Source: a virus. From it: 52,193 nt of DNA. Made by a program: the position numbers and the translations under genes. The stretch is taken from positions 1-52,193 of the IMG/VR virus record IMGVR_UViG_3300044568_005649. One strand, 5' to 3'. Each line of letters starts with the position of its first letter. Position 1 is the first letter of the stretch. The notes beneath the pieces are model-generated. The model searched no databases and was not told where the DNA came from. It saw only the letters and a program-made list of their open reading frames with translations. Below, one piece after another: positions 2,814-23,782 of the stretch.

Positions 2814-2819
2814 TTGATC

Positions 2820-2974: not shown

Positions 2975-2994
2975 CTGTGTTGATCCCGTCAGGC

Positions 2995-3210: not shown

Positions 3211-3255
3211 GTTGTGAGCTTCCTTGTTCTTGGTGCAGCCCTTCAGCGAGGGCTA

Positions 3256-3690: not shown

Positions 3691-3785
3691 TGCTTTCCTG
3701 TTTCCCATGCTTCCAGACTGCTGGGGATGTCAGCGTAAGAGTCTGGGCTTAAGCAGTACCTATGCCCCTCTCGCACCTCCTGCCG

Positions 3786-3947: not shown

Positions 3948-4204
3948 CACAGGAGCTCCACGTCGTCATCGTGGACCCAGATGTACATCGGCGTGCTGTC
4001 AACCAGAACGTAGACGACACACGCATCTCCCCAAGGCACTACTGAGGCTGATCGCCCAACTACACACTTGGCTTCTGACGCAGAACGCAGCAAGAGGCAG
4101 ATCCTGTTAAATCGCCCGTCCCAGCCTCCGTCATAAAAGTAGACCTCACTCTTTAGTAAGATGAGGCCGCCTTGATGAGTGCGAAGCTGGCAAGCAAAAT
4201 TCAC
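3947..4204 (-). CDS. Small 'WVW' family protein, copy 1
   Basis: 85 residues starting at a GTG (4204) that overlaps the previous stop as GTGA. It contains an aromatic segment (SEVYFYDGGWDGRFNRICLLL) and ends VLVDSTPMYIWVHDDDVELL. The same plan (early Trp/Phe-Asp-Gly-Trp-Asp segment, RI/RV-x-LLL strand, a VxxLI/VDS strand and a terminal (I/V)WV-x-(D/E)xx-V-x-(F/L)L) appears in the proteins at 4201-4464 and 4880-5167. It therefore belongs to a local paralogous family. It is small, probably a beta-barrel or SH3-like fold, of unknown function. Confidence 0.75.
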   Translation of the reverse strand: MNFACQLRTHQGGLILLKSEVYFYDGGWDGRFNRICLLLRSASEAKCVVGRSASVVPWGDACVVYVLVDSTPMYIWVHDDDVELL

Positions 4205-4464
4205 AGGAACACCACACAGCTCTCAGCGACCCAGACCCAGCGGAGATTTCCACTGATCAGCAGCTGGACAGATGCTCCAGGTAGTCCGAGAGACACTCTG
4301 CCGGTGGAACCATCTCGCAGCTGATGGTCTAGCGGCTTCGCGTCAAGCAGGACGCTGACCCTGTCGAGATCATTATCCCATCCCGACCCATCCACCAGCC
4401 AGAAGATGTTTGGCACTCTAACCAGGCTGCCGACACGTGCTTGAAGCTTTTCGTGCAGGCGCAT
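4201..4464 (-). CDS. Small 'WVW' family protein, copy 2
   Basis: 87 residues from the ATG at 4464, preceded by a strong GGGGGGAGGA ribosome site. It reads FWLVDGSGWDNDLDRVSVLL in the first half and ends LLISGNLRWVWVAESCVVFL, aligning with copies 1 and 3. It is coupled to copy 1 by GTGA. The arrangement in tandem, split only by one unrelated gene, points to duplication in place. No catalytic residues are conserved between copies, so a binding or regulatory role is more likely than enzymatic. The frame continues upstream past 4464 but without a ribosome site. Confidence 0.8.
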   Translation of the reverse strand: MRLHEKLQARVGSLVRVPNIFWLVDGSGWDNDLDRVSVLLDAKPLDHQLRDGSTGRVSLGLPGASVQLLISGNLRWVWVAESCVVFL

Positions 4465-4495
4465 CGGTCCTCCCCCCTCATCTTCTAGGGCCCAT

Positions 4496-4870
4496 TCACA
4501 CAGTCTTCTGACGTCGCAGTCTGAGCTCCTCGATGCACGGCTCACACCGAGTCACAAGCCAGAACTTTCCTGAGGTGATGGCTGGCTTCCCACACGTGTC
4601 ACAGATGTGGAAAGACGCCTTCTCCACCTCATTGATCGCCGCGCGGATCTCCTCGGTGGTCTGGCCCACGTAGAACCGAAGCCCTCCGAACTTCTCCTTC
4701 ACCTGGTGGACGCGCGTGTCGGGGTTCCTCTCGGCAATGAACACCAGAAGATCTTTCAGCAGAGAGTGCCACCCAGCGTCCACATCGAAGCTGATGCATT
4801 CCGCGTAGCACTCATCTGACAGGATGCCACGGAGCTCCTCAGGCAGATCTTGATTGCTCATTCGACTCAT
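4496..4870 (-). CDS. Conserved hypothetical phage protein with C-terminal zinc ribbon
   Basis: 124 residues, ATG at 4870 with GGGAG six bases upstream. The N-terminal part has CYAECISFDVDAGWHSLLKD. It is followed by the characteristic block VKEKFGGLRFYVG (about residues 60-72), an EEIRAAINEVEKAS helix, and a four-cysteine ribbon (CDTCG ... CEPC). The KEKFGGLRFY signature with a Cys ribbon is shared by a hypothetical family found in many phages and some bacteria. The ribbon probably binds zinc. Function is not established. It sits between WVW copies 2 and 3. Confidence 0.85.
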   Translation of the reverse strand: MSRMSNQDLPEELRGILSDECYAECISFDVDAGWHSLLKDLLVFIAERNPDTRVHQVKEKFGGLRFYVGQTTEEIRAAINEVEKASFHICDTCGKPAITSGKFWLVTRCEPCIEELRLRRQKTV

Positions 4871-4879
4871 TGTTTCTCC

Positions 4880-5167
4880 CTACAGGAATTCCACATAGCT
4901 TTCAGTGATCCACACCCAGTGTGGCGCACCATCGATCAGAAGCAGGGCATCAACCGTAGCTCCGCAATCTGCACGGAGAACTGTGGTCTGGTAGGCGCAA
5001 GGGTGTGGTACGTCACACTTTCCGTGACGGACGTCTAAAATGATGCAGGTCTGTTCGTGTCTGTCATCTCGACCGCGGCCCCCAAACCAGTAAAGCTCCC
5101 TGTGCAAGCGAATGAGACGATGCTTGTGACTCTGAAGTCGTTCAGAGAAAGTCTGTGTGCGTCTCAT
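4880..5167 (-). CDS. Small 'WVW' family protein, copy 3
   Basis: 95 residues from the ATG at 5167, overlapping the upstream gene by 26 bases. It has a basic N-terminal helix (FSERLQSHKHRLIRLHRELY), then WFGGRGRDDRHEQTCIILDV, and ends LLLIDGAPHWVWITESYVEFL. The C-terminal strand pattern matches copies 1 and 2. This copy carries the most regular ending and may be closest to the ancestral form. The frame is open further upstream to 5515, but only as a low-complexity shadow of other genes. Function unknown. Confidence 0.75.
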   Translation of the reverse strand: MRRTQTFSERLQSHKHRLIRLHRELYWFGGRGRDDRHEQTCIILDVRHGKCDVPHPCAYQTTVLRADCGATVDALLLIDGAPHWVWITESYVEFL

Positions 5168-6194: not shown

Positions 6195-7607
6195 TCAAAA
6201 ATGCCGTGTGAAGATCCTGCTTCCAGCGCCGTAGATCCGATAGACACCCGACTCACCAGCAACTTCCCGCTCTGACCTTCCCGACCTTGCTCGGTACCTG
6301 AACCTGTCGATCCTGTCGACGCCGTTGGTGTACCAGTACGATGGTCCGGTCTCGCCTATGAGCTCAAAGCCCGCCTTCAGGTACACACCGCCCGTTCCCG
6401 TGTCCAGGTCGGCGTAGCTGATCATTCCTCGGAAGCCGCGTCCTCTCGCCCACTCGACAGCGTGGGGCAGCATCTTCTGGAAGCCGCCCAGGACGACTGT
6501 GTTGGGTGCGGAGGCGAACCTCGCTATCTCTACGAGGCCCAGCGCCCTGTGTCGACGCTGTCGTGGAACTCGAAGTGTGACCACTGCAACCAGTGCGCCA
6601 TCGTGCATGAGGCCAAACGCCTTGCCGGCAGCGGTCGAGCCGTACATGTGCGACCTGTCCATGAAGCGTGCTGCCGTCTGCCCAGACACCTCAGCCACGG
6701 TGCACTGCCGCCCGTGGATCCTGTGCCTGCTGAGGCCCAGCCTGTGACGCACCATTGACTCGACGATGGGCCTCTTTGTCCTCCACTGGTCGGCGTACAC
6801 GCGAAGCAGGGCGATGCCCATCCTCTCGCACTCTCGAGTCTTGTGGAGGTGCGCGCTGGGCGCCTTGCCTCCGGCCTCGCTGTGCCAGAACAGGCCCTCA
6901 TACTCAAGACCGAAGCTCCTTTCCGCCACCAGGACGTCGATCTCCTTGGGAGAGATGACCCTGCGGTTGTTCCTGGACACCTCGAATCCGAGGGACTGAA
7001 TGAAGTCTCCGATCTCCAGCTCCGCCTGTGAGGACGAGTTGGGATGACACCTTCCGCAGAGAGATCCCCTCTCGAACGCCTGCAGCGTCTTCTCGGACGT
7101 CACGCCGCAGACGTCACACCTGAATGGTAGATACTGTCGCTGACGGGAGGTGTACTCACTGTAGTCGACATCAGACGTGAGGCCCGGTCGCGAGGTGATC
7201 CTCGCTGAGAGCTGATGGGGTGTGATCCGCTTGCCCACCCTGATCCTCTCAATTGAGGTCAGACTGTGCCGCCGTCCAAAGAAGGGATTTCCTGCGCCCG
7301 TGAACATAACGGCTTGCTGCTGGATCCTGTCGTCGGTCTCCTTTGTCTTTCCTCGATTCCAGGCGGGTGCCTTTCCACCCCGCCGTCCCCCAGCCGCAGC
7401 AGCCGCGTCCTTGCAGCCGGCACAGTACTCTCTGAAGCTGAAGGATGTGTATCTGGTCATCTCACCGCACGAAACGCACGTGGGTCGAACGCCGCCGTAG
7501 CAGCACTGGATCGTGTATTCCTCGCCTCGCAGGCTGTGAGCCTTCTTGATGTGGTCTGACAGGTGTTTTCCTGTCTCGAACTCTCCTCCGCAGACGCCAC
7601 ACACCAT
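6195..7607 (-). CDS. Free-standing homing endonuclease (Vsr/EDxHD-like) with zinc fingers and NUMOD3-like motif
   Basis: 470 residues from the ATG at 7607. The frame is open to 7721, but that stretch overlaps the upstream hairpin. In order: a C2H2-like finger (C3, C6, H19, H24), a second Cys cluster (C35-C65), a NUMOD3-like DNA-binding motif (GNPFFGRRHS, about 106-115), a CxxC...CxxC ribbon (C164, C167, C184, C187), and a nuclease domain (about 193-280) with SSQAELEIGDFIQSLGF, EIDV, GLEYEGLFWHS and LLRVYADQW. The last domain matches the very-short-patch-repair/EDxHD nuclease fold used by phage homing enzymes. Residues 300-440 form a GNAT-like domain seen behind such nucleases in other phages. 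The gene lies downstream of the capsid gene, a common insertion site for such elements. Confidence 0.88.
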   Translation of the reverse strand: MVCGVCGGEFETGKHLSDHIKKAHSLRGEEYTIQCCYGGVRPTCVSCGEMTRYTSFSFREYCAGCKDAAAAAGGRRGGKAPAWNRGKTKETDDRIQQQAVMFTGAGNPFFGRRHSLTSIERIRVGKRITPHQLSARITSRPGLTSDVDYSEYTSRQRQYLPFRCDVCGVTSEKTLQAFERGSLCGRCHPNSSSQAELEIGDFIQSLGFEVSRNNRRVISPKEIDVLVAERSFGLEYEGLFWHSEAGGKAPSAHLHKTRECERMGIALLRVYADQWRTKRPIVESMVRHRLGLSRHRIHGRQCTVAEVSGQTAARFMDRSHMYGSTAAGKAFGLMHDGALVAVVTLRVPRQRRHRALGLVEIARFASAPNTVVLGGFQKMLPHAVEWARGRGFRGMISYADLDTGTGGVYLKAGFELIGETGPSYWYTNGVDRIDRFRYRARSGRSEREVAGESGVYRIYGAGSRIFTRHF

Positions 7608-7660
7608 GTCATCACCAGCTTGTGTGGTGATTATACACTGGGCAGGACATGTTGTGGTGT

Positions 7661-7708
7661 CGGTGGGATCCAAAAATGGAAGTGGCGCCCCATTTTGTGA
7701 GGCGCCAC
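7661..7708 (-). terminator. Probable terminator after the capsid gene
   Basis: A perfect 8-bp inverted repeat (GTGGCGCC at 7682-7689, GGCGCCAC at 7701-7708) with an 11-base loop. On the minus strand it is followed by ACTTCCATTTTTGG. It lies about 45 bases past the capsid stop. A second small hairpin (TAACTC-GAAA-GAGTTA, 7724-7739) lies between them. The intergenic stretch 7608-7752 holds nothing else visible. Confidence 0.65.
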
Positions 7709-7752
7709 CTTGATTTAGCAACTTAACTCTTTCGAGTTAGATTACATTCAGC

Positions 7753-9663
7753 TCAGATGATACTCATGTCCAAGCAAGTGACAGTTCCGTAGAAATCGGA
7801 GCGCACCATCTTCTTGCCGTAGCGAGTCATAACGCCCTTGCGCGGGGTGAAATCCTCAGGCGCGAAGATCGTCGGGGTGACGATCAGGGGCACGTACGGG
7901 GCGTAGACGTAGCCGGTCTCGAGGTAGGAACCGCCCTTGTAGCCGACGAGGATCTTGTTCCGGGGGAAGTACGGATCCTTGTAGACCATGAAGCGGTTGC
8001 TGAGGGTGCCCATCTTCTCGGCGCCGATGGACATCGTGGACGCGACCTGACCGGAGCTGTCGATGCTGTACGTCGGCTTGTAGAACACCGAGGCCTCGAG
8101 CACCGTGGCGACGTCCGGGCCGACGACGATGAAGTTCGCCGCGCCGCGGAGAGTCTTGCGGTGGATCTCGTTGCCCACGTCGATGATCGTCTCGATGAGC
8201 GTCTCGTACCACTCGCGGACCGTGCCGGTGAAGGTCGGGCCGGGGTTGAGCGAGGAGGCGCGGGTGACCTCGAGGCCAGTCGACTTGTTGACGAACTTGC
8301 CCGGAGCGCGCGACCAGAAGAAGTTCGCGCCCTTCGCCTGCGTGAGGAGATCGTTGAGGATCTCCCTGTCGATCTCGAGCGCGATCTGCTCGGACAGGAT
8401 CTGAGTGAGCTCCACCTCAGCGTCGAGGCTGTGGTAGGCGTTCAGGTCCTGCGCGAGCTCCGGCGACCACTTGGCGCGCAGCTTGCGCGTGGTGGCTGTG
8501 ACCGCGATCGACTCGATCTTGATGTCGATCTCGGGGATGGTCGGCGACGGGGTCGAGCCGAAGTCGGACTCGAAGACCGGCACCGTGAGGGCAGAGCCGT
8601 CCGTCGCGTTCGCGCTGAAGGAGTCCGTCTTGGCGAAAGACGCGGTGAGGAGCGTCGCGGTGTCACCAGCACCGGCTGCCGGCGTGTAGGAGCCGGAGAC
8701 GACGGTGAGGACCGCAGCGTTCGTCGTGCCGAGCGCGATCAGCGGGTCGGGTGTGAAGACGCCGCCGCTGAACGTGCCGAGCTGGTTGAGACGACGGACG
8801 TTGAGGATCCCCGAGCCGCCCTGGATCGACTCCGGGAGGGGGCGAAGGCCGGAGAGCGCCGGGCCGGAATCAGAGAAGAGGCCGAGCGACTTCACGTTCG
8901 TCGTGTCCATGCCCGTCAGGTGGCCAGAGCTCGCGTCGAGGACGAGGATCTGGAAGCGGCCGGTGCTGTCGAGCGCGCCGTTGACCGAGGCGTCTTCCTC
9001 GATGAGGTTCGTGATCTGCGGGTCGAACTGGAGGAACTTCCCGTCAGAGCCCGTCGCGAAGGCGAGGCTGCCGTTGGTGAGGGCAGAGTTGCCAGCGAAG
9101 GCGCCGCGGAAGAGGACCGTGAGGCCGCTGCCCATGGACGTGGTGTGCACCTTCGAGAAGGAGGTGCCAACCAGGTCGTACTGGCCGCCGACCGCGAGGG
9201 AGCCGCTCTGGATGCCCTTGCCGGTGGGTGAGCTGTAGATCGACTGGCCCGCGGTGTACGTGGAGGCAGTGGTGCCGCCGTCGCCACCGACGCTGTTGCC
9301 GTAGGTGTAATCCAGGTAGAAGAGCAGCCCGGCGGGGAGGCTCATCGGCTGGATCGACACGAGCTCGTTGGCCACGAGGCCACCGAAGACGCGGCGGACG
9401 ATCGGGAACGCGATGTTGGTGAAGCCGCGGAGGTCGCCTGACTCCGAGCCGCTGCCGCCGCCCGTGCCGATCGAGGAGGCCTCGCGGAGGAGCTGGGAGG
9501 CCTGGTTCTCGAGAAGAGACGCCATGTTCTCACGGCGCTGGCCCTCGAGGCCGCGGAGGAGACCCGTGCGATTCCACTTCTCGACGAGACGCTTGTTGAC
9601 TGTGCCGAGGTGGCGCTGCTTGATGCCCTCTGAGAGCTGCTCGAGGGAAAATGCCCTGCTCAT
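7753..9663 (-). CDS. Major capsid protein (T4 gp23-like)
   Basis: 636 residues from the ATG at 9663, with AGGAG six bases upstream; the open frame further upstream has no ribosome site. The N-terminal arm has LVEKWNRTGLLRGLEGQRRENMASLLENQ, split here at a likely processing region. It is followed by FPIVRRVFGGLVANELVSIQPMSLPAGLLFYLDYTYG, a pattern typical of T4-type capsid proteins. The C-terminal half holds AKWSPELAQDLNAYHSL, IALEIDREILNDL and FIVVGPDVATVLE, also typical. It is longer than T4 gp23 (521), with an inserted Ser/Gly/Asp-rich region around residues 150-380. It forms the hexameric shell and follows the scaffold gene as in T4. Confidence 0.93.
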   Translation of the reverse strand: MSRAFSLEQLSEGIKQRHLGTVNKRLVEKWNRTGLLRGLEGQRRENMASLLENQASQLLREASSIGTGGGSGSESGDLRGFTNIAFPIVRRVFGGLVANELVSIQPMSLPAGLLFYLDYTYGNSVGGDGGTTASTYTAGQSIYSSPTGKGIQSGSLAVGGQYDLVGTSFSKVHTTSMGSGLTVLFRGAFAGNSALTNGSLAFATGSDGKFLQFDPQITNLIEEDASVNGALDSTGRFQILVLDASSGHLTGMDTTNVKSLGLFSDSGPALSGLRPLPESIQGGSGILNVRRLNQLGTFSGGVFTPDPLIALGTTNAAVLTVVSGSYTPAAGAGDTATLLTASFAKTDSFSANATDGSALTVPVFESDFGSTPSPTIPEIDIKIESIAVTATTRKLRAKWSPELAQDLNAYHSLDAEVELTQILSEQIALEIDREILNDLLTQAKGANFFWSRAPGKFVNKSTGLEVTRASSLNPGPTFTGTVREWYETLIETIIDVGNEIHRKTLRGAANFIVVGPDVATVLEASVFYKPTYSIDSSGQVASTMSIGAEKMGTLSNRFMVYKDPYFPRNKILVGYKGGSYLETGYVYAPYVPLIVTPTIFAPEDFTPRKGVMTRYGKKMVRSDFYGTVTCLDMSII

Positions 9664-9691
9664 AATAGACTCCTGACTGATTTGTGGGTGA

Positions 9692-11287
9692 TTAGGACTT
9701 CGAACCAATGCCCGCGAGCATGGCCCAACGGTGAACCTCGACTGCCTCATTCATGCGAACGCCTGAAGTTGAGAGCGGTCGAGAGGTGGGGCTGATCGCG
9801 CGGCTGCCTACAGACTCGCTGACCAATTCCGTCTTCCTAGCAGCCGGCTTGCGACCGATTGACTCGGAAAGACCCTTGTACAGCAGCTTCACCTCACGCA
9901 GGCTCCGGGCGCGATCGAGAGACTCGATGATATTCCGACGCTGAGAGTCGGAAAGCTCACGATCTTGGAGGAGCCTATTGACGTACAGAAGCTTAGCATT
10001 GAACAGGTTCATCTCGGTGAGCTGCCCACGGAGGCTTTCGACGGCCTCAGAGTGCTTCACCAAGTTGGCCTTGAGGTCACGATTTTCCTTCATGACCTTT
10101 GTCTTTGCCGCCTCCGAGAAGGGGGCGGAAACCTTGTGGTGCGGATTGAGCTTGCCCTTGCTTGAAGGGACGCCCTTTCCGACTGACTCGTTGGTGTCGT
10201 CACCGTCGAGCTCTTCTTCGCCCTCGTCGGTGTGAGCAAGTGCGCCCTTCTTGGCCTTCTTGCCCATGCCCATGCCCATGCCCATCTTGCCCTCGCGAAG
10301 AGCACGAAGCTCGCGGAGGAGCGCTGTCTCATCGACCCTGTACACCCTCTCAGAGGGGGAGGGCGCGGCGCCCGGAGGCATCTGGCCAGCGGGAGCGGGA
10401 GCAGCTTCTTCGGGCGCCTGAGCGCCAGCCATGCCGCCAGACACCAACTGGGCGAGCATCCCCTCGATCACTTCCAGCTTGTCCTTGATCTCCGCCATCT
10501 CTGCGGGAACTCCCATGTCAGAGGTGGCGTCGGCGCCGCCAGCGTCTCCTTCCTCTTCCTCTTCCTCTTCCTCTTCGCCTGTGGGCTGGATCGGCGGACC
10601 GTCTTCCTCTTCCGCGTCCTCCTCTTCCGCGTCCTCCTCTTCCGCGTCCTCCTCTTCCATGTCCTCCTCACCCTTCTCCTCGAAGAGCTCGGAAAGGGAC
10701 TCATAGAGGTCGGCCATCTCGTCCTCAGACTCCTCGTCGTAGGCAGACATTTCGTTGCCAGCATGCCCCATGTGCATGCCCTCATCCTCGGGTGACATCT
10801 CGTCCGACATGAGCTCGTCGAGATCGACCTCGTACATCTTGTTCTTGCCCTGCATGGCAGCATTCTCCTTGACGATGTGAGTGGATCTCACGTCAGACGG
10901 TACCACTTGAGAAATTCTAGCGGAACCAAACTTATTAAGCGCAGCGCTTCTCATCTTCTCCACCACGGGAATGAGAGTTGCGCTCTCCTCAGGCGTGAGT
11001 GACTCAACAATCTTGCTCATCGCGCGGAGGAGACCCACCCGCTCGGCAAGCCCTTCGGGAGAGGCAGCATCATCCACAGGCTCGTAGGAGTCCGTGGTGA
11101 GGTCGATTTCCTCTGATTCTTCCAGCTCTGGGTCTGCCTTCTTGGCGCCCTCCAGAAGCTGATCCTCGATGAACTTACGAATCTTTGGCGTCACTGCGTC
11201 AATGATCGCGTTCTTCGCGTTCTGCTCAGCGACTTCCTTGAGTTGCTTTGCGTCAGCAAGCGCCTCTTGGAACAGACTGCTAGTCAT
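9692..11287 (-). CDS. Prohead core scaffold protein (T4 gp22-like)
   Basis: 531 residues, ATG at 11287. The N-terminal third is helical. Residues about 160-265 are extremely acidic, including three EEDAEEEDAEEED-type repeats and a run of nine Glu. A Pro/Ala linker and a basic GMGMGMGKKAKKG stretch follow. The C-terminal domain (about 400-500) has KENRDLKANLVKHSEAVESL, RGQLTEMNLFNAKLLYVNRLL and LREVKLLYKGLSES. That last domain is the conserved part of T4-type prohead core proteins. Acidic scaffold proteins fill the prohead and are cleaved out by the gp21 protease. Its position just before the capsid gene fits. Confidence 0.88.
   Translation of the reverse strand: MTSSLFQEALADAKQLKEVAEQNAKNAIIDAVTPKIRKFIEDQLLEGAKKADPELEESEEIDLTTDSYEPVDDAASPEGLAERVGLLRAMSKIVESLTPEESATLIPVVEKMRSAALNKFGSARISQVVPSDVRSTHIVKENAAMQGKNKMYEVDLDELMSDEMSPEDEGMHMGHAGNEMSAYDEESEDEMADLYESLSELFEEKGEEDMEEEDAEEEDAEEEDAEEEDGPPIQPTGEEEEEEEEEGDAGGADATSDMGVPAEMAEIKDKLEVIEGMLAQLVSGGMAGAQAPEEAAPAPAGQMPPGAAPSPSERVYRVDETALLRELRALREGKMGMGMGMGKKAKKGALAHTDEGEEELDGDDTNESVGKGVPSSKGKLNPHHKVSAPFSEAAKTKVMKENRDLKANLVKHSEAVESLRGQLTEMNLFNAKLLYVNRLLQDRELSDSQRRNIIESLDRARSLREVKLLYKGLSESIGRKPAARKTELVSESVGSRAISPTSRPLSTSGVRMNEAVEVHRWAMLAGIGSKS
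10590..10665. repeat. Acidic codon repeat in the scaffold gene
   Basis: On the plus strand TCCTCTTCCGCG recurs three times in 15-base units, with an adjacent TCCTCT run at 10548-10577. They encode the Glu-Glu-Asp-Ala and poly-Glu stretches of the scaffold. All units are multiples of three bases. Such runs are prone to slippage length change. Confidence 0.8.
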
Positions 11288-12965: not shown

Positions 12966-13463
12966 CTATCGGAAGGCGAGCGACGCCCACTTGTCCGCTG
13001 CGTCACCGAAGAGCTCAGAAGGCTCATGCTCAGCCACAGCCCGCGCGATCGGATCCATGGAGGTCTCGGGCCTCATCCTCTCGGCCGCCCGCTGCTCCTG
13101 GAGCGTCGTCGCTGCGGTGTCGGCGAAGATGGAGGAGAGGATGGGATCGGAAGTGATCTTGCTCGCCAGACTGCGGTGCTCCTGCTGGGCTGCAGGACGC
13201 TGGACGACCTCCCGCTGCAGTGCAGGACGATCGAGGTTCATCCCACCGATCGTCTTTCTCCTGGGGGGATCCTGGATGCCGTCAGCTGCAGGCCTGCTGC
13301 CTGCGTTCCCACGCAGCTTGTTCCTGGTCGCCTCCTGGATCGGGTCCCTGCCAGAGGCGAGACTCGCACTCATAGACCGCGGAGACTGCTGGGCGTTCAC
13401 GCCCTCGGTGAGGATCTCCACAAGGCACTCGCGGATAAGAGTCTTCAGATCAGATCGTGTCAC
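12966..13463 (-). CDS. Hypothetical protein of the head block
   Basis: 165 residues starting at the GTG at 13463, which overlaps the protease stop as GTGA and has GGGAG five bases upstream. A TTG four codons earlier is less likely. The N-terminal helix TRSDLKTLIRECLVEILTEG resembles the short amphipathic N-terminal helix found in several T4-type prohead core proteins. The remainder is Arg/Ala/Pro/Gln-rich and disordered-looking, with a SKITSDPILSSIFADTA segment. Placed directly after the protease, it may be a core or internal protein; unproven. Confidence 0.75.
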   Translation of the reverse strand: MTRSDLKTLIRECLVEILTEGVNAQQSPRSMSASLASGRDPIQEATRNKLRGNAGSRPAADGIQDPPRRKTIGGMNLDRPALQREVVQRPAAQQEHRSLASKITSDPILSSIFADTAATTLQEQRAAERMRPETSMDPIARAVAEHEPSELFGDAADKWASLAFR

Positions 13464-14068
13464 TTCGTCTCCCAACTGAGGATGTCGTTGAAGATCCTAT
13501 TGACGCGATCTGATCTGTTAAAGACGCGGCGGAGATCAGACTCCACAATCTTGGACTCTCTCATCATGAAAGCGCCGGGCGTCGAGGGCTCGCTCACGAA
13601 ATCGAAGCAGATCAGCTGAAAGTCCTCCTGCACGACATCGTGGTCACCCTGCTTTCGCGTGGAGCCCACACCTCGTGAGGAGATTCCCAGCGTGACGCCC
13701 GACTCCACCAAGCTCTGGAGGATCTTTCCGGAGGGCGTGTTGAGAAGCTCCACTGTGCCTGTCACGACGCCCCGCTCGATCTTGGCAGAGCGAACGATGT
13801 GCGAGGCGTTCTTCAGCTCGACGACAGACGCGGCCGGATGGTCGCACTCTCCCAGCGCCCTGTTCTCCCTGATGAACTTCTGGTAGTTCTGGATCTCTCG
13901 CTCCAGGATCTGCTGGGGGTAGATCCTGCCGTTCTGGTTCAGAGTGTTCGCCTTCTGCAGGATCCCACGCATGATGATCTTGCCGCCGTTCTCGGCACGG
14001 GACTGCTCGACGAGCAGGGGCGTGTACTCGAACGGCGTCCACTCAGTGAGCAGCCTCTTGTCGCTCAT
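13460..14068 (-). CDS. Prohead maturation protease (T4 gp21-like)
   Basis: 202 residues, ATG at 14068 overlapping the upstream stop as ATGA. The hallmarks are NQNGRIYP (45-51), ALGECDHP with His77, a NASH segment (87-90), and GISSRG (129-133) holding the nucleophilic Ser. FVSEPSTPGAFM follows. This is the herpesvirus/T4 gp21 assemblin-type serine protease arrangement, and the length is close to T4 gp21 (212). It cleaves scaffold and capsid arms during maturation. A cleavable N-terminus cannot be delimited by eye. Confidence 0.92.
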   Translation of the reverse strand: MSDKRLLTEWTPFEYTPLLVEQSRAENGGKIIMRGILQKANTLNQNGRIYPQQILEREIQNYQKFIRENRALGECDHPAASVVELKNASHIVRSAKIERGVVTGTVELLNTPSGKILQSLVESGVTLGISSRGVGSTRKQGDHDVVQEDFQLICFDFVSEPSTPGAFMMRESKIVESDLRRVFNRSDRVNRIFNDILSWETK

Positions 14069-14922: not shown

Positions 14923-17900
14923 CTACTCCTTCTCCTCCCCTCTAGGTAGGCCCGCCCTGAGAGACCTCAGGGTCGCATTTAGGTCATTAGAGGAGGCGGT
15001 CGTGTACTTGTTGACCAGCTCATCTATGTCCTGAGCTGAGTCCTCGTCGACCGTCGGAGTGAGGTCCTTCAGGCTGGGAGCGTAGTCAGACTTCTGTCCG
15101 TAGGGGTGCCTGATGGCGTCCCTCTTGTCGCCTGGGTCGTGGCTGACCAGCTCATTGTGATCCACCGAGGCTCTCATGACGCCTCCCGGCTTTCGACGCT
15201 TGGCGTTGTAGCGAAGGCGGTCCGCGTGGTCCTCGGCCGTCTCCCCCTTCTTCATGGCGCGAGCCCTGCTCGCCTCACTGAGGACGACCGGGAGGGACTC
15301 TAGACTCCTGACGCTTCGGTCGATGACCCTCTGTGCCCTGACAGGTGCCTCCTCGTCGCTGATCTTGTACTGGAGCTCGTCCAGCGGCGCCGGGCCACCG
15401 GGAGGTGGGCCTCCAGGCACCGGAGCGCCTGCAGCGGGTGGGCCAGCGGTCACAGGAGTCTCTGTCGGTGGCGGAGGCGGCGGCGGCGAGTCGTCTCCCG
15501 CGCCGATCTCTCCACCCGTGGATGCCTCGGGCTCGTCGGTCATGCCGCCGCCCTCTGCCTCCGCCTGCACCTTCTCCAGCTCCAGCTCGCGGAGCTTGTC
15601 CTTGATCCTGCCCTCCTCGATCTCCTCGATCTGCTCGTCAGTGAGCCCGAGGAGGTTCTTTCGAAGCCACCGCTTGTCGAAGTAGCCCTCGGGCGCCTTG
15701 GAGACGATGTCGAAGCGTGTGCCGTAGAGGTCCAGCTTCTGCTGCTGAGCGATGGTGGACGGATTGGGAAGCTGGAGGGTGAAGTCCAGCAGGTCATCCC
15801 CCTCGAAGCCGTTGGAGTACAGGTGGATGATCGCCAGCTTGTTCAGCTCCGCGATCACCGTCCGCTGGATGCGGGCGATCGTGCGGGAGAAGCGGATGTC
15901 CTCCTGCGAGAGGGTAGCTTTCGAACCTATCGACTCGTCGTATCCGAGGTACGCCTTAGGGATCTTCAGCGCAGCAAAAAGTTTCTTCTGGATGTACTGG
16001 ACGTCCTCGATCGCCGCGGCATTCGTGCCGCCCGAGAGGGTGTCGATCTTGGTACCGGACTCGCCGCCGCGGACGGGGATAAAATAATCTTCGTCAACTG
16101 AGTTATGTATAAAAATCAAGGACTTGGCAACCATGTCTTCATTATGAAGATGAAGTGCAGGTCCTGCTGCAAAGTTGTGATACTTCTCCACGGTAATGCA
16201 GCCCGTGTCCTCACGCGCCTCAAGTTTTTCGACGCGGACAACCTTGTGATTCATGTAGCCGATGTGCTCAGAATCGGCAGCGCGCTGAACATATTGCTGG
16301 TTGAACGCCTGGAAGGTCCCACATGCTTGCGAAGCAAGCCACTGGTAGGAAGACCTGTTCATGTTAAAGTGGCGCAGGATGTCCTGACGCTTTACCTGAC
16401 CTCTTCGTGCCTCGCAGAACTTGACCAGCTGATCTGTCCCAACCCTGCTGAGCAGCCACTTCCGCTTAAGATCTTCGATCGGCTTTTTGAAGCCGAACAT
16501 CCGGAGGTGTTTCTGGAGGGAGCTCCTCGTGACTCTGTCATTGAATCCGTTCTTGAAGTCTGGATTGAGTGCCTGGAGGTAAGAGGCGAACTCTTTGCTG
16601 CTGTTGAGCTCGCTGATCAGATCACACTCTCGTGTGGAAATGCCAGTCCCGAGCTTGTCGAGCGCTGTCATGCAGTGATCAATGAACATCGCATCTACAC
16701 GAAGAGAAAGCTTCTCCACTCTCTTCTGTCTGATGTCGTCTCTCTTCCACAGATCGACGAAGGTCTTTGCCTCGATCTTTCCGCTCTCCCATGTCTTTTT
16801 CATCCGACTACGGGAGTTTGCCCTTCCCCTGTCTGACTTGTTGTACTCAACAATCATGTTTCCGTGGAGATCGTGATGATCTTTCCAGGTCATGGGAGCA
16901 AGGTTTTCCGGGTTGTTGTTCCTCTTGTCAAAGTCTGCGTGGTGAATAACCTTTCCGACTATTGCATCAAAGCCTGCAGTTGCAATGACGTTGCATCGGT
17001 GTGTGTAGCTGTATGTCTGAGCAAAAGGATCGTAGATCTTCTCGTACCCCGTCAGCTTGCTACCGTCTTCAGCAGCTGACGTCTTCGAATACAAGGGCAT
17101 GAGAGCATCGTCCGGCTGGAGCTGTGAAGCCTCACGATAGGATCCATCTCTCAGCATGAACCTGTGGTCGGGCGTGCAGTCAAAGTACACTCCGCTATCG
17201 ATGTGCACTCTCACCATCTCTGCGTCGCGACGAGTGACGCCGGCCCATACGACCTTTCCCGGGACAAGACACTTTCCATCAAGGTCCACAGAGTAGACCC
17301 ACTGGTCCTGCTTTCCGCCCTCCCACTCCTTGATGAAATCACCGAGTGATGTCATCCGACCATCTTGAAGCTTGATCGACGTGTTAAGCGAGTTACACAT
17401 CGGATTGTAGCGCATATCAACGCGCCCTGTGTTCTTGTCCACCACCTGGCTTTTCTTGAGCGCCGCCTGCGCCTGCTCCATGTACATCGGCACCTCCTCG
17501 GGAGGCACGTTGCCGACGTCGATGTAGAACACGCGGCGATCAGGTGATCTCACAACGCGATACACCAGCATCGCGTCCTCGGCGAGGACCAGCTGCCTCC
17601 ACACGCGACGCGCGCCCTCCAGCACAGATGACCCGTACGGAAGGAAAGCGTCGTTCCCGAGGAGGCGGAAGTGGGTCACCTGCCAGTTCTCGAGGGGCGT
17701 GTTGCCCTGTGTGATCCAGCGGTACCGGACCGCCATCGGGTCCTTGGGGTCGTAGTTCTCCTCCCGCTCGATCTCGTTCACCGGGATGGGAATGACGTTT
17801 CTCACGCCGTTTCCCGGGTGGACGTCATTAAAAAGTACAAAATCGCCGTACTTACAAAGGTTTCTCACCCACGCAGTCAGGTTGAAGTTGACGTTGAGAG

Positions 17901-18267
17901 TGTCGAAGAGCAGCTCGTTGAGGAGCCGCTCGATATCCTTGTTTTCCGAGTAAATGGAGAGAATCAGACCATCCACACCGGGAGACGCGACCTCCTCAGA
18001 GTAGATGTCCAGGGCGCTGTTGATCTCGGGGTAGTAGTCCATCTCCGAGAAGTCGCTGTATCTGGCGAGACGATCGTATGTCCCGTAGGCACTCATTGCG
18101 CTGCTGTACGCGGAGCTGTGGTTCTTTCGGAACATCTCGTACGCGGACAGCGACTGCCCGGGACCCGTCTGGGCCTTGAAGTCCTTGACGGTCCTCTTGA
18201 TGACTGGGCCGCTTCTGAAGAGGCTTGTCAGCCGCGAGAAGAGATTAGGATTCGAGTCCTTTGCCAT
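14923..18267 (-). CDS. Portal protein (T4 gp20-like) interrupted by an intein
   Basis: 1114 residues as translated, about 682 after removal of a 432-residue intein (residues 291-722). Extein features typical of gp20: SDFSEMDYYPEINSALDIYS (71-90), LLFDTLNVNFN, YGDFVLFNDVH, then after the intein SVDEDYFIPVRGGESGTKI and DTLSGGTNAAAIEDVQYIQK. Exact joining gives RVDMRYNPM-SVDEDYF, the expected uninterrupted core. The spliced length exceeds T4 gp20 (524) because of a C-terminal Glu/Lys-rich helix and a Pro/Gly tail (PPPPPPPTETP). The portal is the 12-mer at the head vertex that docks the terminase, whose gene lies 28 bases upstream. Confidence 0.93.
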   Translation of the reverse strand: MAKDSNPNLFSRLTSLFRSGPVIKRTVKDFKAQTGPGQSLSAYEMFRKNHSSAYSSAMSAYGTYDRLARYSDFSEMDYYPEINSALDIYSEEVASPGVDGLILSIYSENKDIERLLNELLFDTLNVNFNLTAWVRNLCKYGDFVLFNDVHPGNGVRNVIPIPVNEIEREENYDPKDPMAVRYRWITQGNTPLENWQVTHFRLLGNDAFLPYGSSVLEGARRVWRQLVLAEDAMLVYRVVRSPDRRVFYIDVGNVPPEEVPMYMEQAQAALKKSQVVDKNTGRVDMRYNPMCNSLNTSIKLQDGRMTSLGDFIKEWEGGKQDQWVYSVDLDGKCLVPGKVVWAGVTRRDAEMVRVHIDSGVYFDCTPDHRFMLRDGSYREASQLQPDDALMPLYSKTSAAEDGSKLTGYEKIYDPFAQTYSYTHRCNVIATAGFDAIVGKVIHHADFDKRNNNPENLAPMTWKDHHDLHGNMIVEYNKSDRGRANSRSRMKKTWESGKIEAKTFVDLWKRDDIRQKRVEKLSLRVDAMFIDHCMTALDKLGTGISTRECDLISELNSSKEFASYLQALNPDFKNGFNDRVTRSSLQKHLRMFGFKKPIEDLKRKWLLSRVGTDQLVKFCEARRGQVKRQDILRHFNMNRSSYQWLASQACGTFQAFNQQYVQRAADSEHIGYMNHKVVRVEKLEAREDTGCITVEKYHNFAAGPALHLHNEDMVAKSLIFIHNSVDEDYFIPVRGGESGTKIDTLSGGTNAAAIEDVQYIQKKLFAALKIPKAYLGYDESIGSKATLSQEDIRFSRTIARIQRTVIAELNKLAIIHLYSNGFEGDDLLDFTLQLPNPSTIAQQQKLDLYGTRFDIVSKAPEGYFDKRWLRKNLLGLTDEQIEEIEEGRIKDKLRELELEKVQAEAEGGGMTDEPEASTGGEIGAGDDSPPPPPPPTETPVTAGPPAAGAPVPGGPPPGGPAPLDELQYKISDEEAPVRAQRVIDRSVRSLESLPVVLSEASRARAMKKGETAEDHADRLRYNAKRRKPGGVMRASVDHNELVSHDPGDKRDAIRHPYGQKSDYAPSLKDLTPTVDEDSAQDIDELVNKYTTASSNDLNATLRSLRAGLPRGEEKE
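16102..17397 (-). mobile_element. Intein with HNH homing endonuclease domain, inserted in the portal gene
   Basis: 432 residues in frame. It begins with Cys1 (codon 17397-17395) in CNSLNTSIKLQDGRM, the block A pattern. Block B includes YFDCTPDHRFML with the T-x-x-H motif (His78). An HNH domain lies at about 150-179 (VIHHADFDKRNNNPENLAPM, then HHDLHG). DNA-binding-like helical repeats follow. The block F/G region includes ITVEKYHNFAAGPALHLHN and ends IFIHN, with Ser as the next extein residue. The C-terminal block is unusual: a second His-Asn pair (HLHN) precedes the final one by 13 residues. The true splice is placed at IFIHN/S because that restores the portal core. Confidence 0.92.
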
Positions 18268-18295: not shown

Positions 18296-19918
18296 CTACT
18301 TGAACAGCCAGACGAGATCCTGGTGGATCTTTCCCGACCTGAGGTCTGCAACCATGCGCATGTCCCCAGCGGGATGAGAGGCGAGCTGTGCAGACGTGTA
18401 GATGTTTTGAGTCTGTCCAGGCAACAGTCCGGCCGTTGATCCTGCTGTCCTCTTCATGGAGCTGAACATCACTGTGTTGAGGTTCACCGCACTTCGGCTG
18501 TACTCCGAGTTGACGTCGTACAGCCACGCGCCGATCGCGAGGGACATGACGAGGTCGTCATTGTGCCCCTTCATCGCCTCTGCCTTGCTGTTGTTCGACC
18601 AGACGAAGGTCTTCAGCTCCTGGTAGAAGCGTGTGGAGTACGACACCAGCTGACGGTTTCTGATCAGCTCCTCCAGCTTCGTCAGGATGAGGGTCCTGGT
18701 CTTGCCGGTGGTGGCGAACCCCGCGTGCGCGAGGTCGAGCGACTGGACGTAGTCGCCGATCAATGCGACCTTGGCACCCTGCGTGTAGATCCGTGGGTAG
18801 TCCAGGTCCTTGAGGCGAAGCAGGCACGCGTACCCGTAGGAGTTGTTCTCCGGGCAGACGATTGCCTTGTTGTACTTGAGGCCCCACTCGTTGATCAGCT
18901 CCGCCAGGCGATCCGGCGGGATCTTCCCGCGGTACTCAGCCACGACCTCGCCCGTCATGCAGTCCACTATGTGGAAGGTGGAGTAGTCCGACGAGTCGCC
19001 GCGGGCCACGTCTCCCGTGAGGATGTACTTGTGCTCCGACAGGGGGATCTTCCAGACCCAGACGTTCATGTCTGGACCTCCCCTCATCACCGGAGGCCGA
19101 GTCATCCCGTTCACCCAGGCGATGTCCGCGTCTGTGAGGAAGGTCTCACCTGACGCCGCAAAGTCGCACAGGAACTCTTGAGCGATCTGCCTCTCCGAGT
19201 AGTTCTTGGACTCCTTCTCGAACCACTCCTGGTCGTGCTCCGGGTGCACCGTCCACGGGAGCTTGACATGATTGAACTCGTTGACACAGGACTCCGCGTC
19301 AGAGTAGAGCTTGTAGAACTGGCCTCCGACACCGTTGGGCGTGGAGAGGAGGATCGCCTGTCCACCGGTGGTGAGCGTGGGGCCGATTCCGGTCCAGATC
19401 TCGTCGAAGTTCCTTACGAACGCCGCCTCGTCGATGATGAGGAGTGTCAAGGACTCGGAGCGGCCAGCGTCCTCAGAGGTGGGAATCGCCTTGATGGACG
19501 AGCCGTTGCTGAACTCGATCTGCTGCTTGTTATTGACAGTGATCTGCGGGAGGATGAGCCAGGGAGGCATGTTGTTCAGGATGGTCTTCACCTTCCTGAT
19601 GAACGTCTGCGCGACAGCAAGCTTGGTCGCGATGATGAGGATGTTCTTCTCTTTCTGATAGAGCGCCATCCAGGTCGCGTACGCGGCAGTGGTGGTCGAC
19701 AGTCCCAGCTGACGGGACTTGACCACGATGTTGAACCTGTGCTTCCTGAACTGTACGACGCAGTCGTCCTGGAATGGGAACGTCCTGAAGGGCAGGAGGC
19801 CCTTCGTCGGGTGCTGGATCTTACAGTAGGTGTTGAAGAAGTAGATTGGATCTCGTCCGCATCGGATGATCTCCTCTACCTGCTTCTTCTTGGGAACTAC
19901 AGCTGGGCTGGTTCCCAT
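18296..19918 (-). CDS. Terminase large subunit (T4 gp17-like)
   Basis: 540 residues. The ATG at 19918 shares a base with the upstream TAA. ATPase domain: Walker A-like SRQLGLST (68-75), Walker B LTLLIIDEA (157-165) and a coupling motif LLSTPNG (190-196). Nuclease domain (RNase H fold): TGDVARGDSSD with Asp303, CPENNS with Glu357, and GHNDDLVMSLAIG with Asp454/455. It translocates DNA into the prohead through the portal and cuts concatemers. The Walker A variant lacks the usual GKT, which is normal for T4-like terminases (deviant P-loop). Length is slightly below T4 gp17 (610). Confidence 0.95.
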   Translation of the reverse strand: MGTSPAVVPKKKQVEEIIRCGRDPIYFFNTYCKIQHPTKGLLPFRTFPFQDDCVVQFRKHRFNIVVKSRQLGLSTTTAAYATWMALYQKEKNILIIATKLAVAQTFIRKVKTILNNMPPWLILPQITVNNKQQIEFSNGSSIKAIPTSEDAGRSESLTLLIIDEAAFVRNFDEIWTGIGPTLTTGGQAILLSTPNGVGGQFYKLYSDAESCVNEFNHVKLPWTVHPEHDQEWFEKESKNYSERQIAQEFLCDFAASGETFLTDADIAWVNGMTRPPVMRGGPDMNVWVWKIPLSEHKYILTGDVARGDSSDYSTFHIVDCMTGEVVAEYRGKIPPDRLAELINEWGLKYNKAIVCPENNSYGYACLLRLKDLDYPRIYTQGAKVALIGDYVQSLDLAHAGFATTGKTRTLILTKLEELIRNRQLVSYSTRFYQELKTFVWSNNSKAEAMKGHNDDLVMSLAIGAWLYDVNSEYSRSAVNLNTVMFSSMKRTAGSTAGLLPGQTQNIYTSAQLASHPAGDMRMVADLRSGKIHQDLVWLFK

Positions 19919-20369: not shown

Positions 20370-20573
20370 CTACGCTTCCTCCTTCCGCTCACTGGTGGGC
20401 CTTCCTCCTCTGGCCTCATCCACGCTCGGCCGCCACCCATCAGACCAATCCTTTCTCCTCACCTCTGCGAAGTTGACAGCGCACTCGTCGCAGCACCCGT
20501 GGAGGCGAAACTGGTCGGGGTCGTGCGGGCTGGACATCGCCCTCCTGCAGACCGGGCAGAAGAGTGGGATCAT
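20370..20573 (-). CDS. Small zinc-finger protein
   Basis: 67 residues, ATG at 20573 overlapping the upstream stop as ATGA. Cys6-x2-Cys9 (FCPVCRRAMSSPHDPDQF) and Cys27/Cys28-x2-Cys31 (LHGCCDECAVNFAEVRR) form a four-Cys zinc site. Then KDWSDGWRPSVDEARGG and a charged tail follow. Similar short proteins (CPVC ... GCC..CA.NFA) occur next to recombination genes in T4-like phages. It may assist protein or nucleic-acid contacts; unproven. Confidence 0.8.
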   Translation of the reverse strand: MIPLFCPVCRRAMSSPHDPDQFRLHGCCDECAVNFAEVRRKDWSDGWRPSVDEARGGRPTSERKEEA

Positions 20574-23500
20574 GCCACCACTCTCGAGGCGCCGCCCACC
20601 TGCGTGATCTCGATCACCTGATCGACCGCGTCCTTGACACCGTCGACGTGTGAGATGACAAGGATGAACCTGTAGATTCGTCTCAGGGACCTGATGAGGT
20701 TGATGCACGCGGCGAGCTGCGTCTCGTCCAGAGAACCGAATCCCTCGTCGATCACGATGAAGTCCGGCTTGGGGAGGGTCGTGATCCTGGTGAGGGCGAC
20801 CCTGATAGCCAACGAGGAGATCATCTTCTCCATCCCGGATCCGAGCTCCACGATCCGTCGACTGTCACCGTAGTCGATGTAGATCTCCAGTGAGTTGGTC
20901 TCCTGGTCTATCTCCAGCTGCACCTGGAAGGACACAACGTCGCTGAGGATGCTGCTCAGCTCCGCGTTGATTGCGGGAAGGAGCTTGTCGAGGATCTGGC
21001 TGGGGAGGCCCTTCTTGGCGTACGAGCTGACCAACGTCTCGTAGACTCGCCACTGACGCTTGAGGACCTTGAACTCTGACTGCGCTGTGAGGAGGCCCTC
21101 CACCTCCAGCTGTCGCTTGACCAGACCCGCGTTCTTGTCTCCGCGCAGCAGCCCCAGCTTGTCGATCTGTCTGTTGATTCCATCGAGATCGTCACGAAGT
21201 GTCTGAAACGCGCGTGAGGTCTCCTCAGACGCCTTCTTGACCGCCTCGTCCAGCGCGACCTGTGCAGCCTCGCGTGCCTCCTTCGACCGCTTGCAGGAGA
21301 CCAAAGCTGTGGCACGCTCCTCCTTGGCCGTCTTGAGTGCACTCAGGACGTCTGACTCACGTGCGACTGCTGACGTGTAGCTGGTGATCTTGGCTTCCGT
21401 CCCAAGGGTTGACACCATCGTGTACGCCTTCTTGCACCCATCCAGACTGACCTCAGCCTTTGACACAGCTGCTTCTAGGTCGGAGAGCTTGTCGCGGGAC
21501 TCAAAGGAGCGCTTGATGAACTTGCACGTGGGATGTGAGTCACCGCACGGAATCTGGCTGAGGACCTCAACATCGCCTGCTGCGGTGCTGAGGCTGACCC
21601 TCTCCAGGCGCACGGTAGCGGTGAGGTCGTTGATCTGCTTCTCGAGATCTCTCTGCGACTTGAGCTGGGACCTGAGGCTTTCAATGTCTGTCGCCTTCTT
21701 GAGCGACTCGATCGCGTCGATCTTCCTCTGTGCTGCCTCGATCCTGGCCACAGCAGCTGATTCCCGTGTCAGGTCCTCATCATGCTCTTTCTTTCGTCTG
21801 GCAGACATGCCTGTCAGTCGTGTGACGTCCTCCTCGGTCACCACCTGTGACCCAGACTCTGACACGATCTGTGCCTGGACGTCGGATCGGGCCTTGTGGA
21901 GGCCAGCAACCTCCTGATCGATCTGGTCGATCTCGTCGAGGAGGGCCTGCTGGGCCTGCTCAGCGGCCGTGATCAGGGCGGACCAGTCCCGATCAGGCAG
22001 GAGCTTGAGCCTGCTCTTGACTGCGTTCGCCTCAGGCTTGATCGCCTCGAGGACACGATCGAAGATGTCCAGGTCGAGGAATCTTCCGAGGTATGTCTTG
22101 CGGGAGGTGGCACCCTCATCGATGAACCTGTTCATGGTCCCCTGCGCTGAGAGTGCGGTCATGAAAAAGTCCTCAGCCGTGCCGATCGTCCTTCGGATGG
22201 TCTTCTCAGTGTCAGACCTCTGCTCTCCCGACGCGTTGTCGGTTTTTTCCATCAGGGTGAGAGAGGTGGGAGCCCAGACACGTCCGCTCCTTTCGTGCTT
22301 GAGAGTGGATTCCCTCTCGATCTGGATCTGCCGATCTCCGACAGAGATGTCCATCTTTGCTCGGCAGGACTGCTGCCCCGACCGAATGACGTGGATGTTC
22401 TTCATCGACCCACGATCGGTCGTGTTGAACATGCAGTACACCATGGCACCGATGATGGAGGACTTGCCGATCCTGTTGGGACCGAAGATGCCTGTCACGC
22501 CCTTCATCTCTGAGAAGTCAATAGAGTTGCTGCCGGCGTAGGTAAAGAGGTCGTCGAACTCCAGCGACTTGATGGTCCAGGTAACACCCCTGGCGTCCTC
22601 CGACCGTTCTCCTGCATCATCCAGAGCCTTGTAGACGATTCCCTGCACCAGCTCCCACTCCTCATCAGTGTGTGTAGTGGGGCCCACCAGCTCCTTGATC
22701 AGCTTGACGTGTGTGTCGGGTGAGTGAAGATCCTCACTCACTACGTCTGTGACAAGGATCGCAGAGTCCTTCCGCTCACGCTTGGAGACGAACTCCCTGA
22801 TCCCGTGCGAGAGCCGCATCTCAGACTGGAGCTGTCTCTCATCCTGCGGCGTGCAGGTGTCGTCACAGACCAGCCTGATTCTGGCGCCTTGCTGGATCCC
22901 AGACGCGGCGAGCGTTGTCGTGATATTCTTTTGCCACTTGACAGTGATGTACGGGTCGGGTGTCTCAACCTCCTCGAACCACACTCGGTGGCTGTTCGGG
23001 CCGAAGACCTCCCAGACCAGGAATCCCTTCGGAAGGGCCTCACCGAAGTTCTGCTGGAGGAGACCACCGCTGTATCCCACCCAAGGCATCTGCACTGTGA
23101 CCTCCAGGAGCCCATCTCGCTCTCCGATCACACGGGATCCGGGATGCCTGTGGAGGTCTGCGGGCGGGATCCGGAGACACACCTCCCGCTGGTCCAGGAA
23201 CTGCATCCTGTGAATGTCACCCAGCAGGGCGATGTCGTAGCCAGTGAAGAGGTCGAGGGATGTGTCTGACTCGTACGCCATGTCAGAGTCGAGAAGGCAC
23301 CCAGCGATGCCGCCGTGGAAGGCCGCTATGTTGACCTTCCCCTCCTCCGGCTTGACGTTCGACCATCCCTCCTCGTCGAAGCAGGAGAAGACGCAGAGGT
23401 TGTACGCGGGATCGTGCATCGGGTAGACGCCCGACTTCTTGCACAGGATGATGGGGTACGTCGAGCCTGATCCGATCGCCGTGAGAATGGGGCTGATCGC

Positions 23501-23782
23501 GTCGAGGCGTGAGGAGTTGCTCAGGATGCCGTCGTGGTTGCCCAGTGTCACGTAGACGTGAGCGATCTCTGATGCTGTCCTGAAGAAGTGCGTGATGAGC
23601 TGCACGGCCTCGGGCGTGATTCCCTGCGTCTTCGTGTGCCAGATATCTCCGCCCACAAAGATCGCGTCGACCTGGAGCTCTCTGCATCGAGCGAAGAAGG
23701 AGTCAAACGCCTTTCTGTACTCTTCGTGTCGCTGGAGTCCGCGGATGTGGATGTCACTTACGTGTGCAATCTTGAGGCTCAT
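20570..23782 (-). CDS. SbcD-SbcC (gp47-gp46) fused recombination nuclease
   Basis: 1070 residues in one frame. Residues 1-345 are a Mre11/SbcD-type metallophosphoesterase: DIH (Asp10, His12), GGDIW (44-48), GNHDG (81-85), AFHGG (His156), LLGDIH (187-191). Residues 405-1070 are Rad50/SbcC-like: GPNRIGKSS P-loop (433-441), a long coiled coil, a hook-like CGDSHPTC (C-x6-C), signature ELGSGMEKMISSLAIR and Walker B FIVIDEGFG (about 1008-1016). In T4 the two are separate genes, 47 and 46. The complex resects DNA ends for recombination-dependent replication. The ATG at 23782 overlaps the primase stop as ATGA. The fusion enforces one-to-one stoichiometry. Confidence 0.93.
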   Translation of the reverse strand: MSLKIAHVSDIHIRGLQRHEEYRKAFDSFFARCRELQVDAIFVGGDIWHTKTQGITPEAVQLITHFFRTASEIAHVYVTLGNHDGILSNSSRLDAISPILTAIGSGSTYPIILCKKSGVYPMHDPAYNLCVFSCFDEEGWSNVKPEEGKVNIAAFHGGIAGCLLDSDMAYESDTSLDLFTGYDIALLGDIHRMQFLDQREVCLRIPPADLHRHPGSRVIGERDGLLEVTVQMPWVGYSGGLLQQNFGEALPKGFLVWEVFGPNSHRVWFEEVETPDPYITVKWQKNITTTLAASGIQQGARIRLVCDDTCTPQDERQLQSEMRLSHGIREFVSKRERKDSAILVTDVVSEDLHSPDTHVKLIKELVGPTTHTDEEWELVQGIVYKALDDAGERSEDARGVTWTIKSLEFDDLFTYAGSNSIDFSEMKGVTGIFGPNRIGKSSIIGAMVYCMFNTTDRGSMKNIHVIRSGQQSCRAKMDISVGDRQIQIERESTLKHERSGRVWAPTSLTLMEKTDNASGEQRSDTEKTIRRTIGTAEDFFMTALSAQGTMNRFIDEGATSRKTYLGRFLDLDIFDRVLEAIKPEANAVKSRLKLLPDRDWSALITAAEQAQQALLDEIDQIDQEVAGLHKARSDVQAQIVSESGSQVVTEEDVTRLTGMSARRKKEHDEDLTRESAAVARIEAAQRKIDAIESLKKATDIESLRSQLKSQRDLEKQINDLTATVRLERVSLSTAAGDVEVLSQIPCGDSHPTCKFIKRSFESRDKLSDLEAAVSKAEVSLDGCKKAYTMVSTLGTEAKITSYTSAVARESDVLSALKTAKEERATALVSCKRSKEAREAAQVALDEAVKKASEETSRAFQTLRDDLDGINRQIDKLGLLRGDKNAGLVKRQLEVEGLLTAQSEFKVLKRQWRVYETLVSSYAKKGLPSQILDKLLPAINAELSSILSDVVSFQVQLEIDQETNSLEIYIDYGDSRRIVELGSGMEKMISSLAIRVALTRITTLPKPDFIVIDEGFGSLDETQLAACINLIRSLRRIYRFILVISHVDGVKDAVDQVIEITQVGGASRVVA

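Follow-up and report, generated by a model that had tools for sequence, protein, structure and literature searches.

A predicted HNH-carrying intein in the clip domain of a T4-like phage portal protein, and related inteins across the gp20 gene

Introduction

Does a T4-like portal gene whose reading frame spans 1114 amino acids encode a protein with an extra domain, or a precursor that splices? The question is raised by the window analyzed here, by which we mean the whole stretch of DNA, a virus record of 52,193 bp. A preliminary description had proposed that 432 residues of the portal frame, starting at a Cys after YNPM and ending in HN before SVDEDYF, form an intein with an HNH domain. We find that the insertion is very probably a mobile HNH intein that sits in the portal clip domain and removes itself by splicing, with splicing and homing both predicted from sequence.

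Results and Discussion

The portal gene and its insertion

The portal gene and its surroundings contain the following features.

14923..18267 (-): portal (gp20) precursor gene, intein included; 1114 aa; Portal_T4 (PF07230) 8e-70, phrog_213 portal
17398..18267 (-): N-extein, 290 aa, last residues ...RVDMRYNPM; full length matched at 93% identity by the intein-free portals L007/L008
16102..17397 (-): intein, 432 aa, Cys1 to Asn432; PF14890, TIGR01445, Foldseek matches to Hint/intein structures, precise empty sites
14923..16101 (-): C-extein, 392 aa plus stop; best Portal_T4 stretch at residues 722-885
18296..19918 (-): terminase large subunit gene (terL), upstream of portal; Terminase_6N 2.6e-16
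13460..14068 (-): prohead protease gene (gp21), downstream of portal; Peptidase_S77 2e-24

Both outer parts of the portal ORF match the T4 portal family, the gp20 structures 3ja7/6uzc are matched as well, and terL and the prohead protease gene are the neighbors, as in a T4-type gp20 locus. The gp23 gene lies farther downstream than the prohead protease gene, and terL is uninterrupted. The insert occupies residues 291-722 of the ORF with junctions VDMRYNPM / CNSLN and LIFIHN / SVDEDYF, and the ends first proposed for it are exact. Within and next to it we distinguish the following parts.

17086..17397 (-): Hint splicing domain, N-terminal half (blocks A and B; TPDH, His78 at B:10); TIGR01445 at residues 3-81
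16876..16956 (-): HNH nuclease motif, intein residues 148-174; HNH_3 (PF13392) 4e-6, phrog_7545 HNH endonuclease 1e-12
16252..16830 (-): intein residues 190-382, mainly helical in the AlphaFold2 model
16102..16251 (-): Hint domain, C-terminal half (blocks F and G), residues 383-432; alignment with related inteins
16198..16200 (-): Cys400, block F position 4 (F:4), second candidate nucleophile; shared with the Pro1 portal inteins described below
16099..16101 (-): Ser+1, first C-extein residue, predicted transesterification nucleophile; +1 is Ser in 24/25 non-redundant inteins at this site

A database search bore out the intein assignment. Pfam returned Intein_splicing (PF14890, 5e-13) along with HNH_3, and NCBIfam returned TIGR01445 intein_Nterm (1.3e-8), all three above cut-off. 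The C-terminal model TIGR01443 matched weakly (0.08), probably because blocks F and G are farther apart than usual, as they are in same-site relatives; the long F-G spacer is common to the sister inteins L161 and L162. NCBIfam also related the window intein to an RtcB-family protein intein (NF052663, 4e-34), and PHROGs gave portal and HNH endonuclease matches for the precursor ORF. Supplied with the intein plus 6-residue flanks, together with 41 related inteins, AlphaFold2 produced a model with a mean pLDDT of 88.5 and a pTM of 0.63. Foldseek comparison of this model with the PDB yielded PI-PfuI (6e-9) and NrdJ-1 (3e-6), as well as Ssp DnaB, DnaE (Npu DnaE) and RecA inteins and others, and a sequence profile search matched NrdJ-1 and DnaE inteins.

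The catalytic positions are all intact: Cys1, TxxH (TPDH) with His78, Cys400, His431-Asn432 and Ser+1. The column of His78 is His in 154/154 aligned portal inteins. L005, a 55% identical sibling of the same type, terminates in KN rather than HN, suggesting that this His is not essential to the intein group. The HNH domain does lie mid-intein, with HHADF...NNPENL at residues 152-166, and H152, H153, N165 and H174 are all present. Based on the model, the helical region that follows probably serves the homing endonuclease in recognizing DNA. GC content is 51% and GC3 63% in the intein, compared to 58-63% and 80% in the exteins.

Two other readings of the insert were rejected. If the C-terminal end were placed at an earlier HLHN in the F-G spacer, the next residue would be Glu, not Cys, Ser or Thr, and the extein would not be restored. 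For a group I/II intron or other RNA element, the window contains no Rfam match, and the insert reads as an open frame encoding a Hint domain.

Empty sites and position in the portal structure

We mapped the site by aligning the intein-free L007 portal with T4 gp20 (3ja7, with 6uzc for full-length numbering). The insertion falls between T4 gp20 Met328 and Ser329, within the clip domain (279-358), where terminase and neck attach (PMC4493910). As a check on the numbering, the inner clip loop residues R338 and K342 (PMC4493910) land where expected.

A search of IMG/VR with the window C-extein gave 80 portal loci. In most related portals recovered by the extein searches, RYNPM or RYNPL runs straight into S/AVDEDYF with no insert. 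L007/L008 have their empty site exactly at YNPM / SVDEDYF, and L010 and many others are also empty exactly at the junction. Removal of the insert thus restores a contiguous gp20-like core, as the preliminary description had held. The exact DNA pattern of the window junction without the intein revealed no intein-free sister closer than L007/L008; it occurs in nine other contigs, all more distant phages that are 57-66% identical upstream. The same intein, in the same position, is found in four more IMG/VR contigs (L001=L142, L002, L003=L087 and L004=L006), where the intein has 98.8-100% amino acid identity to that of the window, indicating that it is neither a chance reading nor an assembly artifact. 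At this position, L009 and L194 carry inteins of a different type.

These comparisons bear on whether the 432 residues might be an ordinary, lineage-specific portal domain that is kept in the mature protein. As would be true of such a domain, the insertion is in frame and leaves the gene open. However, the Hint family and fold matches, the canonical intein ends, the precise absence of the insert from 93% identical portals, and the presence of other intein types here and at about 20 other positions all argue against it, and 12 copies of a 49-kDa domain would crowd the face of the clip where terminase and neck dock. We consider an ordinary domain so improbable as to be negligible.

gp20 as an intein hotspot

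Our IMG/VR scans used the N-extein and the alignments of two groups of inteins as queries, and a spliced-alignment program was then run on all portal ORFs to locate inteins. As the program rewards typical intein ends, the end residues are partly guided; at the main sites, the ends are fixed by the extein motifs on either side. The 300 portal-bearing loci (some contigs counted twice) included 112 with one located intein, 25 with two, 19 with three and 2 with four, totals that give no frequency, most of the loci having been picked by intein match. L146 and L254 are one contig, whose intein count was corrected by hand to three.

The resulting set comprises 154 non-redundant gp20 inteins (90% identity) in IMG/VR contigs, at about 20 positions and with up to four per portal. 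In portal profile numbering, these positions are 62, 65, 68, 72/73, 78, 84, 87/88, 132, 203/208, 221, 233/235, 285 (the site of the window intein), 310-314 and 343-349; as neighboring positions may blur in the most divergent portals, a cautious count is 11 clusters. By the structural alignment described above, the sites at 310-314 and 343-349 map to the channel and tunnel loops, which in T4 gp20 (350-359 and 374-398) contact DNA (PMC4493910). Tight packing is illustrated by L146 (nt 2052-5100; IMGVR_UViG_3300008255_000136), in which three consecutive portal inteins of 149, 438 and 367 aa are separated by extein segments of just SRYSDF (6 residues) and SEMEY (5 residues), the middle intein ending in Gln. 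Judging from these contig sequences, gp20 of this T4-like group is a heavily invaded intein hotspot.

The preliminary description had called the portal a less familiar intein host. That it is a host holds, but it was already a known one: portal inteins were tabulated in 2016 from six cluster C1 mycobacteriophages (PMC5050341), and in the T4-like group the gene is heavily invaded. The window intein taken alone is a good but ordinary example. We found no account of a gp20 intein hotspot in the open-licence literature, the part covered by our search. A tblastn search of 50,697 phage records with three different portal inteins gave none in an annotated portal, and our searches turned up no related gp20 intein in any annotated phage isolate; the record LR756508 is unannotated. 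For specialists, the hotspot and the Pro1/Cys-F:4 series described below are of more interest than the single intein. With so many inteins crowded into one essential virion gene, gp20 also lends itself to studies of how inteins compete and home from phage to phage. For annotation, a portal ORF of 1000-2450 aa in a contig of this kind probably encodes a precursor that undergoes splicing.

Several individual loci deserve mention. The portal ORFs of L172 (2453 aa) and L224 (2208 aa), from nt 2 onwards, each contain four inteins; both ORFs are open at the start of the locus, and further inteins are possible. L158 (LR756508.1, 146234-149947), from a 484-kb uncultured phage record, has portal inteins of 150, 141 and 458 aa. 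In L060, the prohead protease is interrupted at nt 7085-7567 by an insertion of 161 aa that resembles a mini-intein (GE / CVDAET...FWTGN / CDHPES), and the same phage has an intein in its portal too.

Predicted splicing and its role in portal maturation

After translation, the Met-Cys bond would be attacked by Cys1, possibly aided or replaced by Cys400. The N-extein would be handed to Ser+1, and cyclization of Asn432 would free the intein. YNPM would thereby be ligated to SVDEDYF, giving a 682-aa portal for the 12-mer, with RYNPMSVDEDYF as the predicted ligated junction peptide. Since an unspliced intein would occupy the docking face of the clip domain, portal splicing should be required for DNA packaging.

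This position also raises the idea that the intein does more than propagate itself and acts as a conditional switch controlling portal maturation: it would block terminase docking until spliced, and conditional splicing is known in other inteins, according to work cited in PMC7156551. However, its distribution is patchy, as the program located inteins in 3/80 and 12/73 portals in the extein-aimed searches, which were not directed at inteins. Close relatives have a different intein or none, and the HNH domain in most of the inteins is the pattern of a selfish element. A regulatory switch is in our view very unlikely, and we favor the reading of a selfish, mobile intein.

A footprint consistent with recent homing

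In a mixed infection, the HNH domain would cut an empty portal allele at the insertion site, and repair would copy the intein together with a short flank. The conserved, essential portal sequence would in this way be a recurrent target of many related inteins. One of the contigs that share the window intein, L142, bears on this model. Across terL and most of the N-extein, L142 is 63-85% identical to the window (200-bp steps) and is therefore clearly a different phage. Within the intein, the two differ at only 2/1296 nt. In the upstream flank there are 0/63 differences nearest the insertion, compared to 67/459 nt overall. Downstream, the first 11 nt are identical and the first difference is at nt 12; L142 differs at 16/191 nt there, and the intein-free L088, L089 and L010 differ at 34-40/190 nt. 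Upstream, the nearest difference in these intein-free loci is 4-13 nt from the junction. We infer recent homing with short co-conversion from the near-identical intein and flank in a divergent phage, although ordinary recombination could also have produced them.

An alternative is that the intein still splices while its endonuclease is no longer active and the element descends vertically. HNH activity is not readable from sequence, and the smallest portal inteins (141-175 aa) have no room for the nuclease domain. Against this, the HNH residues of the window intein are intact, and its near-identity to that of L142, with an identical upstream flank despite 63-85% identical surroundings, implies recent spread, which could nevertheless have used the nuclease of another phage or ordinary recombination. 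We judge an inactive nuclease unlikely and retain the reading of a putatively homing-competent element.

L143 (IMGVR_UViG_3300010885_078585) differs from L142 at 4 positions in 5459 nt, and the final base of its contig is the one immediately preceding the site of intein insertion. This end is suggestive of intein-plus and intein-minus alleles in one population, and it may be an assembly fork.

Cys400, the Pro1 inteins and splicing class

Many of the inteins at two main sites, 132 and 285, start with Pro, for example RNL / PVHKDT...SQN / CKYGDF (132) and YNPM / PIKHDT...LRN / SVDEDYF (285). Across the 154 aligned inteins, F:4 is Cys in 33/33 Pro1 inteins and in 12/121 Cys1 inteins (Fisher 7e-24, kinship of the inteins ignored). 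The window intein is among the 12, with Cys1 at position 1 and Cys400 at F:4 in place of the usual Asp.

The F:4 Cys is the branch point in class 3 inteins (PMC3196547, PMC7891396), and class 3 inteins such as MP-Be DnaB, MchDnaB1 and AceL NrdHF share it with the window intein and the Pro1 portal inteins. A second mark of the class, the absence of a nucleophile at position 1, is seen in the 33 Pro1 inteins but not in the window intein, which keeps Cys1. The third is the WCT triplet, in which the Trp at B:12 deviates in 6.1% and the Thr at G:5 in 4.6% of 1701 surveyed class 3 inteins (PMC7891396). Among the Pro1 portal inteins, Trp B:12 occurs in 4/33, Cys F:4 in 33/33 and Thr G:5 in 1/33; the L009 intein, for example, has Phe at B:12 and lacks Thr at G:5. 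The window intein has Phe80, Cys400 and Ile430. We therefore rejected class 3 membership for the window intein, with its retained Cys1 and missing Trp and Thr. The Pro1 portal inteins are not class 3 by the WCT criterion either, yet they may work in a class-3-like manner.

Could splicing of the window intein nonetheless start at Cys400 as in class 3, with Cys1 vestigial? This variant of the intein reading draws on the class 3 branch position of Cys400 and on the retention of that Cys by all 33 Pro1 relatives. Yet Cys1 is still present, neither B:12 nor G:5 has the class 3 residue, and an F:4 Cys has already been described in class 1 inteins (PMC3196547). We regard a start at Cys400 as possible but doubtful, and a start at Cys1 as the preferred reading. 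Even so, Cys1 might be dispensable, given Cys400 at F:4 and the same Cys in every Pro1 relative. For the same reason, a Cys1-less mutant that still gave mature portal, suggested in the preliminary description as evidence against an intein, is not a valid test.

We built a quick, unrooted tree from just 139 columns of the splicing blocks, leaving out positions 1 and F:4 and including no established class 3 intein. It places 32/33 Pro1 inteins in one group with two inteins that have both Cys1 and Cys F:4 (SH-aLRT 97). The window intein groups with L005, L161 and L162 of the same site (97), near inteins with Cys1 and Asp at F:4. Within the limits of so few columns, this topology fits a history in which the F:4 Cys was gained first and Cys1 was lost later, and a reversal is also possible. 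In an engineering study, a direct evolutionary step from class 1 or 2 to class 3 was judged unlikely (PMC7664689). Cys1 and Pro1 inteins that share a site offer natural states for the evolution of an internal-cysteine splicing start. We find the case evenly balanced for the combined proposal that the portal inteins represent an independent, stepwise class-3-like origin (F:4 Cys gained, Cys1 changed to Pro, WCT never acquired) and that few known genes match gp20 in the extent of intein invasion, the inteins being 5-6 extein residues apart in one case.

Comparison with known inteins

The portal inteins of the cluster C1 mycobacteriophages (PMC5050341) resemble the window intein in residing in a phage portal protein; these six belong to another phage lineage and a single subcluster. 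The nearest full-length non-phage relatives that we found are cellular GyrA and RtcB-like HNH inteins (bacterial and archaeal), with both hosts named only from the residues flanking the intein. They end in HN / S like the window intein and are of similar length where measured, but they occupy other genes and sites and have Asp at F:4 instead of Cys. Inteins in a packaging gene of tailed phages are also present in phiCbK, Mic1 and Salmonella phage Maynard, although these sit in the terminase (TerL) and that of the window in the portal. Haloarchaeal MCM inteins (PMC10643990) parallel those of gp20 in using several nearby sites in an essential gene, often with several occupied. MCM has four sites, with LAGLIDADG in the studied inteins, whereas gp20 has about 20 positions and mostly HNH inteins.

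Other features of the window

Directly 3′ of the major capsid gene is a homing-endonuclease-like ORF with a TTG start (6195-7721, -; phrog_3339, 1e-68). The major capsid protein gp23 itself (7753-9750, -) is 665 aa long, with its best Gp23 match at residues 371-655; its first half contains a long additional sequence with no intein or nuclease matches. A single 1070-aa ORF (20570-23782, -) fuses SbcD/gp47-like and SbcC/gp46-like parts, with Metallophos at residues 3-192 and the SbcC-like part at 404-1069.
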